NCBI GenBank assembly: GCA_019894735.1
Contig: JAGXOB010000091.1
Span: forward strand, 1 to 6,407
Source: Promethearchaeota archaeon
GTDB lineage: Archaea > Asgardarchaeota > Lokiarchaeia > Sigynarchaeales > SOKP01
Direction: 5' to 3'
DNA length: 6,407 nt
In this document: piece after piece, positions 3,069-6,407 of the stretch
Layout of the letters: each line of letters starts with the position of its first letter
Numbering within the stretch: the stretch's first letter is position 1
Made by a program: the position numbers and the translations under genes
Notes under the pieces: generated by a model
Told to the model about the DNA's origin: nothing
Database searches by the model: none
Seen by the model: the letters and a program-made list of their open reading frames with translations, nothing else

Positions 3069-3773
3069 ATGGATTCTTTAATCTTCGATGAAAGTTTTAT
3101 TAAGAGCAGACTTTTTAATTGTGAATCCCCTTCGAGAATCTCTCTTAAAGACAATTTCTTTACAAGTTCTGCTGTACTATTTTCTATTATTCCGTATAAA
3201 GATAAACCATTCGAATTAATTTTAATTCATCGCTCGAATTTAGGAACGAGACATAGAGGGGAAATGTCTTTCCCAGGTGGAAAGTTTGAAGACGATAAAG
3301 ACAAATCTTTAAAGGATACTGCTCTTAGAGAAACTGAAGAGGAAATTGGAGTTTCAAGGGATTTTATCAAGATTATTGGGTGTCTTGACGATTTTCCTAC
3401 TATGACCAAGTATATCATTACGCCTTATGTGGCAATTGTTGATAAAAATCAAAAATTGATCAGACAAAAGACAGAAGTTCAAAAAATAATAAAAATTCCT
3501 ATTGATTTTTTCACTTCTAAAACTCATTTTCGAGAACAAGCTATTGATGTTGATGGGCATAAATTTCCAGTTTTTTACTTCAATTACTTAGACCAAGAAA
3601 ATGGTCAATCCTATTTAGTATGGGGTGCAACCGCATATATGATTGTTACATTTATAGAAATGTTATACGGATTTACTCTTTCGAACTTAGGTTTAAAACG
3701 ATTTAAGCTCGAAAAAATAAAGGATTTGAAAGAATATATCAAATATAGGAACAACATTACTAAAAAGTTTTAA
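3069..3773 (+). CDS. Nudix hydrolase, CoA-pyrophosphatase type (NudL/NUDT7-8-like), copy 1
   Basis: A predicted Mg/Mn-dependent hydrolase of 234 residues. Characterised relatives split coenzyme A into 3',5'-ADP and 4'-phosphopantetheine. Seen: ILIHRS (51-56) then HRGEMSFPGGK (62-72), matching the region before the Nudix box that marks CoA pyrophosphatases, then TALRETEEEIG (84-94) with the catalytic RExxEE core. A following GCLDD...T...ITPYVA stretch (about 104-122) is also typical of the family. The Nudix helix loop has about one more residue than I recall for typical members, and the second copy has the same feature. It is longer than usual (family about 190-210) through a basic C-terminal tail. 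ATG at 3069 aligns with the start of copy 2. Copy 2 follows after 33 nt, probably in the same transcript. CoA as substrate is inferred from motifs; other nucleoside diphosphate derivatives are possible. Confidence 0.88.
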   Translation: MDSLIFDESFIKSRLFNCESPSRISLKDNFFTSSAVLFSIIPYKDKPFELILIHRSNLGTRHRGEMSFPGGKFEDDKDKSLKDTALRETEEEIGVSRDFIKIIGCLDDFPTMTKYIITPYVAIVDKNQKLIRQKTEVQKIIKIPIDFFTSKTHFREQAIDVDGHKFPVFYFNYLDQENGQSYLVWGATAYMIVTFIEMLYGFTLSNLGLKRFKLEKIKDLKEYIKYRNNITKKF

Positions 3774-3806
3774 TTTTTTAATCATACACATAAAAATTTG
3801 AGAATA

Positions 3807-4475
3807 ATGGAATTCGTTTTCAACGAGCAGTTAATACGAGATAAATTAAAAGATTTTGATTCTCCTGAACGGCTCTCTATGTCACACGAATATTTCACGA
3901 ATTCTGCTGTAGTTTTTCTAATAATTCCAAATGAAGATAAACCTTATGATTTGGTTCTGATTCGAAGAACCAAAAACAAAACTGATAAACATTCGGGTGA
4001 GATGTCATTCCCCGGGGGTAAATTTGATCCAAAGTTAGATAAATCTTATTTTGATACTGCATTTAGAGAACTCGAAGAAGAACTTGGCATTCCCTACGAT
4101 TATGTTACTTTTTTAGGGTGTATTGACGATCACCTTACTCCTAAAGGTTTCATTATTTCTTCATTTGTAGCCTTTATTACCCCAGATGTAAAAATGGCAA
4201 AACAGAAGAGCGAAGTGAACGAAATCGTAAAAATACCCATAACTTTTTTTGCGAATAAAGAGAATTTTAAGGAAAGGACTTATAAACTTAAAGAAGACTT
4301 AATTGGTGTAGGTAAATTTAATTACAAATCTCCAGATAATAAAAAATATGTCGTTTTTGGAGCAACTTCTCATATAATAGTTAAGTACATTGATACTGTC
4401 TATAATCTTGGATTAATGACACCAGGTTGTCGTCGAATTAATTGCGAAGATATTAAAGACAAAATTATCAAATAA
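3807..4475 (+). CDS. Nudix hydrolase, CoA-pyrophosphatase type, copy 2 (tandem paralogue)
   Basis: A 222-residue paralogue of the gene upstream, alignable along nearly its whole length at roughly two-fifths identity by eye. It keeps HSGEMSFPGGK (62-72), TAFRELEEELG (84-94), LGCIDD (near 103-108) followed by T-P-K-G-F-I, and FGATSHIIVKYID near the C-terminus. All catalytic Glu positions of RExxEE are present, so it should be active. I start it at ATG 3807, not the in-frame TTG at 3798. MEFVFNE then aligns with MDSLIFDE of copy 1, and GEMSFPGG falls at residues 64-71 in both. The C-terminus is shorter than in copy 1. Likely a tandem duplication followed by divergence; the two may prefer different CoA forms (free, acylated or oxidised), which the sequence cannot show. 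An 89-nt A/T-rich gap with the tRNA promoter follows. Confidence 0.88.
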   Translation: MEFVFNEQLIRDKLKDFDSPERLSMSHEYFTNSAVVFLIIPNEDKPYDLVLIRRTKNKTDKHSGEMSFPGGKFDPKLDKSYFDTAFRELEEELGIPYDYVTFLGCIDDHLTPKGFIISSFVAFITPDVKMAKQKSEVNEIVKIPITFFANKENFKERTYKLKEDLIGVGKFNYKSPDNKKYVVFGATSHIIVKYIDTVYNLGLMTPGCRRINCEDIKDKIIK

Positions 4476-4534: not shown

Positions 4535-4542
4535 TATAAAAT
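4535..4542 (+). promoter_or_regulatory. TATA box of the tRNA-Sec gene
   Basis: TATAAAAT preceded by a purine-rich AAATAAAG that could act as BRE. Its centre is about 26 nt before the first base of the tRNA at 4565, the expected archaeal distance, so transcription should begin at or within a few bases of the tRNA 5' end and leave almost no leader for RNase P. It is the best-placed TATA match in the 89-nt gap and may also drive the SepSecS gene downstream. Confidence 0.65.
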
Positions 4543-4605
4543 ACATCAAAGAAATAAGTTTTATGGCCCCCGGCGGTCGGGGTGGTCCCAGACGCTGGGC
4601 TTCAA

Positions 4606-4633
4606 AAATTTTATATCTGCTAAAAGTGAAGAT
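4606..4633 (+). other. tRNA-Sec intron 1 (28 nt, anticodon loop, position 37/38)
   Basis: The flanks form a canonical bulge-helix-bulge. The outer helix is the 5-bp anticodon stem. The central 4-bp helix is CTTC 4600-4603 with GAAG 4628-4631. There are 3-nt bulges AAA 4604-4606 and ATA 4632-4634. The inner helix is 4607-4612 with 4622-4627 (TTTT/AAAA plus one A-T, one mismatch) closed by a 9-nt loop. Cutting after the second base of each bulge leaves a 7-nt anticodon loop with UCA in place. This is the most common intron position in archaeal tRNAs. Confidence 0.88.
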
Positions 4634-4667
4634 ACCCAGTTATCCTGCGGAGGGATAGGGGTTCGAT

Positions 4668-4697
4668 ATGGATGAAGAATTGCTTTTTCCAAGAATA
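4668..4697 (+). other. tRNA-Sec intron 2 (30 nt, T loop, position 59/60)
   Basis: Between the T-stem strands GGGG and CCCC lie 37 nt instead of 7. They fold as a second bulge-helix-bulge: outer helix is the T stem; central helix TTCG 4662-4665 with AGAA 4692-4695 (three pairs plus a G-A); 3-nt bulges ATA 4666-4668 and TAT 4696-4698; inner helix TGGA 4669-4672 with TCCA 4688-4691, continuing through 4674-4677 with 4683-4686. Cutting after the second base of each bulge restores the loop UUCGAUU. The same geometry as intron 1 supports removal by the tRNA splicing endonuclease. Confidence 0.83.
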
Positions 4698-4716
4698 TCC
4701 CCCTGGGGGCCGCCAA

Positions 4717-4730
4717 ATTAAAATTTTAAT
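4717..4730. repeat. 14-bp A/T palindrome between tRNA-Sec and SepSecS
   Basis: ATTAAAA followed directly by TTTTAAT, a perfect inverted repeat without a spacer, starting two bases after the tRNA CCA. As a TATA-like element its centre is only about 16 nt before the GTG of SepSecS, too close for a normal start point. It lacks a loop and a following T-run, so it is not a convincing terminator. It may only reflect base composition. Confidence 0.3.
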
Positions 4731-4739
4731 GTAAGGTCT

Positions 4740-6116
4740 GTGAGCCTATTGGTTGATTTTAGTAAGTTTATTGAGTACTTTAAAAGTACGCCGATTCCAG
4801 AAAATATGCTAAATAGAGGGCAATTAGTCTTAAATAATTTCTTAAAACCTATCCAAAACTTGTTTGAACAGAAAAATGTTCCTCAAAATGCTTGGAGCGA
4901 TGATCAAATCGAGTTTTTGTTAAAAACTCTTTCTAATATGGATACTGATAAGGACGATAAAGCGTCTCGAGTAGGAGAGCGTGAAGCAAGAATAGCATCA
5001 CGTCTGCACTTAGAAACTTCCGCTGGATTTTGTCATGGGATAGGAAGGAGTGGTTTTTTAACGGCGCCACAACCCAAAGCTCCTGGAGGGTCGATAATGT
5101 ATGAGCTCAGTAATTATTTGGCTTTAAACTTTCTTAAAAAATTTGGCTTACCAAATGCTAAAAAAGCAATTGTTGTCCCTTTATGCACAGGTATGTCCTT
5201 AGCGTTATGTTTAGGTGCTCTTAAACCTGATTGGAATAACCCAAATTTAATTAATAAAAGAACTGTTATCGTTCCGCAAATTGATCACAATGCTCTAATC
5301 AAAGCATTTGATTTGATTGGCGTTAAAAGGAAAGTCGTAAAAGGTAAGATATTTGGTGACGCTGTTCGAATCCCAATTAAAGATATAGAACAAAGCTTAG
5401 ACGATTATTGTTTTGCCATTATCTCTTTAACAAGTTTTTTCCCTCCTCGAGAGCACGACGATATTAAAGAAATAAGCAAATTTGCTAAAAAACATGATTT
5501 GGTTCATATTGTTATTAACGCTTATGGTTTACAGAGTCCTGAATGGATGAAACTAATCCGAATTGGTATTGACGCCGGTAGAATAGACGCAATCATTCAA
5601 TCAACAGATAAAAATGTTCTCACTCCTGTCGGTGGAGCTATTATCGCTTCACCAATGGAAGATATTATTACTAAAATCAGTCAAGGCTACGCTGGTCGTG
5701 CATCTGCAACACCAGTTGTAAATTTTCTTATATCAATGCTTTCATTAGGAATTGAAGGATATCAACAACTATTAGAAGAACAACAAAAAAATCGAAAACT
5801 TCTGGAAGATAAACTGCAAGAAGTTGCTGAAAAAACTAATGAGAAAATTTTTGAAGTATTTAACCCTGTAGCTGTAGCGATGTCATTGAATAATCTAAAA
5901 AAAGAACAACTATTTGCTTTAGGGGGTGCACTGTATAATTTGAGAGTTACCGGTCCACGGGTATATAACCCAGAGGAAAGTACATTTGGAACATGTTGTG
6001 CTAATTACTCTACGCCTTATATCGTTTTAAACGCTGCAATAGGGGTTAAATCTCAAGATATCATTTCTGCCGTTGAGAGATTCGAGAAGGCTTACTCTCA
6101 AGTAGTTTCTAAATGA
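4740..6116 (+). CDS. spcS: O-phosphoseryl-tRNA(Sec):selenocysteinyl-tRNA synthase (SepSecS)
   Basis: This PLP enzyme converts Sep-tRNA(Sec), made by PSTK, to Sec-tRNA(Sec) with selenophosphate, the last step of archaeal and eukaryotic Sec synthesis; characterised homologues are tetramers. The 458 residues cover the whole family fold. Seen: VGEREAR (78-84), phosphate-binding region HGIGRSG (99-105) with PQPKA (110-114), TGMSLALCL (150-158), FFPPRE (233-238), QSTDKN (287-292) with Lys291 as the PLP Schiff-base lysine, TPVGGAIIA (295-303), GRASATP (319-325), LRVTGPR (401-407) and NAAIG (431-435). The start is GTG at 4740: an in-frame TAA lies at 4719-4721 with no other start between, and the N-terminus aligns with methanococcal SepSecS. 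AAGGT at 4733-4737 is unusually close to the start for a ribosome site. The tRNA-Sec ends 24 nt upstream. Several motifs resemble the human enzyme. The archaeal paralogue SepCysS is excluded by the HGIGRSG region. Confidence 0.97.
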   Translation: MSLLVDFSKFIEYFKSTPIPENMLNRGQLVLNNFLKPIQNLFEQKNVPQNAWSDDQIEFLLKTLSNMDTDKDDKASRVGEREARIASRLHLETSAGFCHGIGRSGFLTAPQPKAPGGSIMYELSNYLALNFLKKFGLPNAKKAIVVPLCTGMSLALCLGALKPDWNNPNLINKRTVIVPQIDHNALIKAFDLIGVKRKVVKGKIFGDAVRIPIKDIEQSLDDYCFAIISLTSFFPPREHDDIKEISKFAKKHDLVHIVINAYGLQSPEWMKLIRIGIDAGRIDAIIQSTDKNVLTPVGGAIIASPMEDIITKISQGYAGRASATPVVNFLISMLSLGIEGYQQLLEEQQKNRKLLEDKLQEVAEKTNEKIFEVFNPVAVAMSLNNLKKEQLFALGGALYNLRVTGPRVYNPEESTFGTCCANYSTPYIVLNAAIGVKSQDIISAVERFEKAYSQVVSK

Positions 6117-6216: not shown

Positions 6217-6407
6217 ATGGAGAATCTTCTTTTAAAACAATTTAATGAATTAATATCTACACAATGGCCTTTTACGCAAATTGACGAAAGTAATGATGAT
6301 TTAACTCCGCGAGAACTTTTCGAATTAGCGTATCATACATGTAATTCAGTAGCTAATAGAACTATTTTAATTAAACTGTCTCCTACAGAAAATAAGAGCG
6401 GATCAGG
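6217..6407 (+). CDS. N-terminal part of an unrecognised protein, cut by window edge
   Basis: Open from ATG 6217 for 63 codons to the window end. An in-frame TAA sits at 6211-6213, so this ATG is the first possible start. The visible part starts MENLLLKQ, is mixed charged/hydrophobic and probably helical up to about residue 15, has acidic DESNDD at 23-28 and a single cysteine (Cys42) in YHTCNS, then a likely strand TILIKLS (49-55) followed by a polar, Gly/Ser-rich stretch. There is no signal peptide, membrane span or P-loop at the N-terminus, so it does not look like the start of PSTK, which normally opens with a Walker A motif. I do not recognise the family. Confidence 0.7.
   Translation, partial: MENLLLKQFNELISTQWPFTQIDESNDDLTPRELFELAYHTCNSVANRTILIKLSPTENKSGS

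Follow-up and report, generated by a model that had tools for sequence, protein, structure and literature searches.

The 6,407-nt stretch of DNA analysed here (the window) carries a selenocysteine locus of a Lokiarchaeon, in which the tRNA-Sec gene is interrupted by two inserts. O-phosphoseryl-tRNA(Sec) selenium transferase (SepSecS) is encoded on the forward strand at 4740-6116 (TIGR03531, 475.5 bits against a cut-off of 224.85; PF05889), with a GTG start as mechanically listed, and shares 94% identity across 379 columns with the SepSecS of G013, whose locus (L013) belongs to Candidatus Lokiarchaeota. The archaeal SelB elongation factor (aSelB) lies on the reverse strand at 2-1408 (TIGR00475, 232.3 bits, cut-off 242.25; PF21440, aSelB_III) and is a fragment, its C-terminal end falling beyond the window. 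At the other edge, the start of a Sel_Asgard-like protein ('putative selenocysteine system protein') is found on the forward strand at 6217-6407, where it is cut by the end of the window (NF045535, 28 bits over residues 28-61, cut-off 132). Lokiarchaeota are known to have a selenocysteine system, as the initial annotation noted. Just upstream of the tRNA gene (3069-4475) are two neighbouring genes for NUDIX hydrolases, both with matches to the same families. A search of a phage collection for a phage origin of the locus gave no match.

The tRNA-Sec gene occupies 4565-4715 on the forward strand (151 nt including both inserts; coordinates and letters checked). Exon 1 (4565-4605), delimited by the RF01852 alignment and checked letter by letter, comprises the 5′ strand of the acceptor stem, the D arm and the anticodon arm up to position 37, with the anticodon TCA at 4602-4604. 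It is followed by a 28-nt intron in the anticodon loop at position 37/38 (4606-4633), which ends in GAAG-AT and whose junction forms the central helix CUUC/GAAG. Exon 2 (4634-4667) runs from A38 through the 3′ strand of the anticodon stem, the variable arm and the 5′ strand of the T stem to position 59 of the T loop, where a 30-nt intron is inserted at 59/60 (4668-4697; central helix UUCG/AGAA, with an inner helix UGGA/UCCA in the predicted fold). Exon 3 (4698-4715) contains T60, the 3′ strands of the T and acceptor stems, the discriminator G73 (4712) and an encoded CCA (4713-4715). CCA is also gene-encoded in 50 relative genes, in contrast to PMC9499178, which in the part of its text that concerns archaeal tRNA-Sec gives the CCA as not encoded; all gene ends were anchored on GCCGCCA, which is present in all 51 genes with complete ends. 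A putative TATA-like box, TATAAAATAC (4535-4544, forward strand), starts 30 nt before the tRNA, and A/T-rich boxes are found at an equal distance upstream in eight relatives. The end of the tRNA and the listed SepSecS start codon are only 24 nt apart (4716-4739), and the tRNA-Sec and SepSecS mRNA may be carried on a shared transcript. SepSecS is close behind the tRNA in many relatives, with L018 and L021 as exceptions.

The assignment of this region as tRNA-Sec with inserts of 28 and 30 nt, first made from the letters of the sequence, is confirmed. The Rfam tRNA-Sec model (RF01852) matches 4565-4711(+) over its full length (model positions 1-91 of 91; 35.3 bits, E=2.9e-4), and the alignment places one long insert in each of the anticodon and T loops. 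Once 4606-4633 and 4668-4697 are removed, the remaining 93 nt fold as a 9/4 tRNA-Sec cloverleaf with both 7-nt loops restored, as had been predicted for cuts at the standard sites, and ARAGORN calls this doubly spliced form tRNA-SeC(tca). No tRNA was called by ARAGORN on the unspliced form or on either half-spliced form, the ARAGORN scan of the window returned 0 tRNA genes, and the unspliced gene, at 35.3 bits, is below the curated RF01852 cut-off of 47 bits, so that the gene is missed by both of these plain scans, as the initial annotation had thought possible. The spliced form has the traits of an archaeal tRNA-Sec, namely a 9-bp acceptor stem and 4-bp T stem, a long variable arm, a UCA anticodon and G73. 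As for the 7-bp D stem of archaeal tRNA-Sec, the window gene has seven facing positions, but the pair 15-26 is G-A; it is G-A or A-A across the anticodon-intron genes, which counts against a functional tRNA.

For both junctions, with each cut set between the second and third base of a 3-nt bulge, the pairs formed in the 4-nt central helix were counted and compared with those of shuffled introns. The anticodon junction of the window has a true 4-bp central helix (CUUC/GAAG), and four pairs were reached in 0.4% of shuffled introns (P 0.004). The T junction (UUCG/AGAA) has three standard pairs and a G-A, and at least three pairs were reached in 22% of shuffles (P 0.22), so this junction is not proven by pairing in the window alone. 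The 3-nt bulge, 4-bp helix, 3-nt bulge geometry claimed in the initial annotation for both junctions therefore holds at the anticodon junction, whereas the T junction shows the bulge-helix-bulge (BHB) motif in a relaxed form (3 of 4 pairs plus G-A); cutting after the second bulge base restores a 7-nt loop in each case.

Relatives of the gene were sought throughout the phylum. A SepSecS scan gave 35 loci, all from Lokiarchaeota or Lokiarchaeia. A scan of 34 genomes with RF01852 at a loose E-value was discarded, as it returned many places of ordinary tRNA length and matches in all 14 control genomes; because of this lack of specificity, a core-sequence pattern spanning the D loop through the anticodon was used instead. 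This pattern, which genes with an altered core would escape, was found at 54 places in 51 of the 227 genomes of the phylum. After the two contig-end halves of the G034 gene were merged and one of two contig-end copies in G137 was dropped, 52 relative genes were retained in addition to the window.

Two introns are the commonest state (30/52 relative genes), usually in the D arm and T loop: 22 genes have this combination (that of G150 ends inside the T intron), and eight (nine with the window) have the anticodon and T introns. A D intron alone is present in six genes from five genomes (G030 having two copies) and a T intron alone in one (G034), while 14 genes are intronless and 93 nt long as they stand; the remaining gene, from G139, has a D intron and has lost its T site at a contig end. 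When the introns are taken out, each of the 37 intron-bearing genes whose ends are complete (that of the window among them) also comes to 93 nt, partly by construction as the D and T boundaries were set from the intronless form. The two tRNA-Sec genes of G030 (L030 and L035) are on one 3.34-Mb contig, each beside a SepSecS start, and both have a D-arm intron in an unusual register; the SepSecS at the second copy matches over only 87 residues.

Pairing at the junctions recurs across these genes, counts that are not independent since many of the introns are kin. All nine anticodon introns of the clade (window included) have 4/4 pairs and keep GAAG, and 3 or 4 of 4 pairs are formed in 29/29 distinct T introns (mean 3.45, compared with 1.74 for shuffled introns), the helix UUCG/NGAA being found in 29 of the 31 T-intron genes. 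For the D introns, 4/4 pairs are formed in 20 of 22 distinct introns (mean 3.64, compared with 1.71 for shuffled introns), a result flattered by a register that was picked by eye ahead of the test. The D helix of G137 is GUUG/CAAU in place of GUCG/CGAU, a change on both sides. The two D introns of G030 have 0/4 pairs in the register used for the other D introns; an alternative GGUU/AACC helix is visible by eye.

Exons and introns differ strongly in conservation. Six genes including the window have identical 93-nt exons, whereas the introns of the five relatives have diverged from those of the window (anticodon introns 68-96% identical, T introns 77-97%). Over the 36 pairs of the nine-gene clade, mean identity is 0.986 for exons, 0.728 for the anticodon intron and 0.800 for the T intron; in the eight full-length (151-nt) genes of the clade, 87/93 exon columns are invariant, compared with 9/28 in the anticodon intron and 19/30 in the T intron (G011, with a 27-nt anticodon intron, was excluded from the column count). 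In the 29 mature sequences that differ from one another, pairing is kept in 922 of the 928 stem cells, and two-sided changes are seen in pairs that span introns, for example G-C/A-U in the T stem among T-intron genes and in the D stem among D-intron genes.

The machinery that splicing would require is encoded in the genomes of the relatives. Two paralogues of the tRNA-splicing endonuclease EndA (PF01974) were found in 21 of 22 genomes, including all eight genomes of the clade, and RtcB was likewise found in 8/8 clade genomes; G018, with D and T introns, has only one detected EndA paralogue, which counts against the mechanism proposed below. In G003, the best alignment of one paralogue, L178, is with PDB 3p1z (named tRNA-splicing endonuclease), and its His and Lys region is conserved; the His is absent from the second paralogue, L190. 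His and Lys belong to the catalytic triad of EndA. As to the selenocysteine pathway, SepSecS in the window is above its cut-off and the aSelB fragment is just under its whole-protein cut-off, and full-length PSTK-like matches are present in 8/8 clade genomes (147-173 bits, all under the family cut-off of 290.5). PMC4090602 connects alpha2-beta2 enzymes to multiple and non-canonical introns and includes 59/60 among the known sites.

The location of the gene in a selenocysteine locus, the conservation of its exons, the pairing at its junctions and the existence of intronless 93-nt relatives all count for a functional, spliced gene. The window very probably contains a functional, apparently single-copy Lokiarchaeal tRNA-Sec (its copy number in its own genome being presumed) from which both introns are spliced by EndA and RtcB. 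The gene would be transcribed with both introns; EndA, with its two paralogues probably assembled as (alpha-beta)2, would cut at 37/38 and 59/60 after the second base of each bulge, and RtcB would join the three exons. The predicted product is a 93-nt UCA tRNA with a 9/4 fold, G73 and CCA, which would then be served by SerRS, PSTK, SepSecS and aSelB so that UGA is read as selenocysteine.

One variant of this scheme concerns the T insert, which could be cut one base earlier (58/59) to give the loop UUCGAAU rather than UUCGAUU. The T loop is plausible in either product, but UUCGAUU is found in all 14 intronless relatives and the 3-4-3 geometry, by our own reading, fits 59/60 better, making the earlier cut improbable. 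It is very unlikely that the mature RNA instead retains the inserts, as an unusual, unspliced tRNA-Sec with oversized anticodon and T loops: the precursor with its introns does take the same cloverleaf with long loops, but a 35-nt anticodon loop could hardly decode, 14/52 relative genes have no inserts, and the inserts vary freely yet keep EndA-type pairing at their 3′ ends. A decayed pseudogene with a working tRNA-Sec elsewhere is less credible still, as the exons are identical to those in five relatives, no second tRNA-Sec copy was found in any of the eight draft genomes of clade relatives, and the gene adjoins an intact SepSecS reading frame.

The history of the introns was followed on a SepSecS tree of 53 rows, from which G150 and the second G030 copy were excluded as too short. 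The anticodon intron changes once on this tree, its nine bearers forming one clade (support 100/99), and the D and T introns change 10 and 11 times, respectively, by parsimony, which gives no direction of change. The D and T introns occur together in the five-member sister clade (G005-G009) and in the rooting pair (G134 and G135), and this combination is therefore read as old, with repeated loss; that reading is less than certain, as the next branches, some of them long, are mixed (G132 has no intron, G034 T alone and G133 D alone). An early origin within the group is probable for the T intron, and the distribution of the anticodon intron suggests that it arose once, in the ancestor of the window's nine-member clade, which lacks the D-arm intron. 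No donor of the anticodon intron emerged from a search with an 18-nt pattern of its 3′ junction allowing up to 3 mismatches, which had 47 matches (seven being the gene itself) compared with 41 for the reversed-pattern control.

Particular exon bases accompany the presence of the introns. In six hand-picked pairs of genes, absence of the T intron coincides with a change of pair 68/78 from A-U to G-C in 5/5 pairs that differ in the T intron, and absence of the D intron coincides with a change of base 14 from C to T in 4/5 (the exception being G030b/G023). When independent pairs were drawn from supported branches, the T intron accompanied 68A in a mean of 7.3 out of 8 pairs (median p 0.016) and the D intron accompanied 14C in 5.9 out of 9 (median p 0.031), with no pair going against either association. 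A strict link between exon and intron is countered by 17/31 T-intron rows without A68 and three D-intron rows without C14, and the nine anticodon-intron rows keep C14 with no D intron. The linked bases could reflect either allele replacement or co-adaptation of exon and intron. G028 has a D intron exactly as in its sister G015 and a T arm of the intronless type. A possible reading, though rather less likely than not, is that allele replacement makes the tRNA-Sec of Lokiarchaea a hot spot for the turnover of introns: versions with and without introns, each carrying its linked exon bases (C14 for the D intron, the A68-U78 pair for the T intron), would pass between lineages and be swapped in place, sometimes partly as in G028, the anticodon intron being new in a clade without the D intron. 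A tRNA that is apparently single-copy, presumably essential and interrupted by introns at three different sites in about 50 genomes provides a compact natural experiment in the gain, loss and swapping of archaeal tRNA introns.

The introns also affect detection. RF01852 matches above its cut-off were found in 70 of the 227 genomes of the phylum, in a scan whose strict E-value and filters could hide matches just above the cut-off; 14 of these 70 are among the 51 genomes with the Lokiarchaeal tRNA-Sec core, and the other 37 of the 51 are missed. Looser RF01852 scans of these 37 genomes (27 in the 34-genome scan and 10 in the other intron-bearing set) gave none above the cut-off. Most of the 37 misses are due to introns, and contig ends additionally truncate three of the genes (those of G034, G139 and G150). 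As tRNA-Sec is a marker gene for the use of UGA as selenocysteine, selenocysteine use can be under-called as a result of Rfam misses. The suggestion that Asgard genomes may appear to lack tRNA-Sec applies to the Rfam cut-off, but a Secmarker-based study reported tRNA-Sec in Lokiarchaeia (PMC9723677). Of the 70 matches above the cut-off, 68 are 86-89 bases long; the outliers, G161 (119 bases; L202) and G117 (112 bases; L203), by our own reading have single anticodon-loop inserts of 30 and 23 nt with the helices CUUC/GAAG and CUUC/GGAG, respectively, and anticodon introns in tRNA-Sec are therefore probably not confined to the window's clade.

In the open-access literature searched, neither an anticodon-loop intron nor a D-arm intron was found described for any archaeal tRNA-Sec. 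According to PMC9723677, some tRNA-Sec of Lokiarchaeia have 'unusual insertions and deletions', which may include D-arm or anticodon introns, and the word intron is absent from the main text of PMC11227280 and PMC13188914. Introns in several places of one tRNA gene are familiar from Thermoproteales (PMC8450103, PMC4090602) and from Atabeyarchaeia and Freyarchaeia, in which many multi-intron tRNAs are described (PMC11291895); these introns, as in the window, occupy canonical and non-canonical sites, 59/60 included, with BHB or relaxed motifs, but the accounts, as excerpted, treat tRNA genes in general (PMC8450103 covering multi-intron archaeal tRNAs as a whole), whereas the window concerns tRNA-Sec. 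The tRNA-Sec of Daphnia pulex, as given in the relevant section of PMC5330540, resembles the window gene in having an intron one base 3′ of the anticodon, and differs in being eukaryotic with a single intron of 16 or 25 nt. The closest known system is the Lokiarchaeota tRNA-Sec of Mariotti et al. 2016, which, as summarised in parts of PMC5330540 and PMC9499178, has a T-arm intron (31 nt in the latter, and the only archaeal tRNA-Sec intron given in that part). It is the same tRNA, from the same group, with a T-arm intron of similar length and possibly the same 7-bp D-stem type; only one intron is reported for it, whereas the window adds the 28-nt anticodon-loop intron and 22/52 relative genes add a D-arm intron beside the T intron. 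On the question, left undecided by the initial annotation, of whether the intron pair had been described, the T-arm intron is already in print for Lokiarchaeota, but the anticodon intron and its co-occurrence with the T intron are apparently new in the open-access literature searched, as are the D-arm intron and the view of tRNA-Sec as a site of fast intron turnover.
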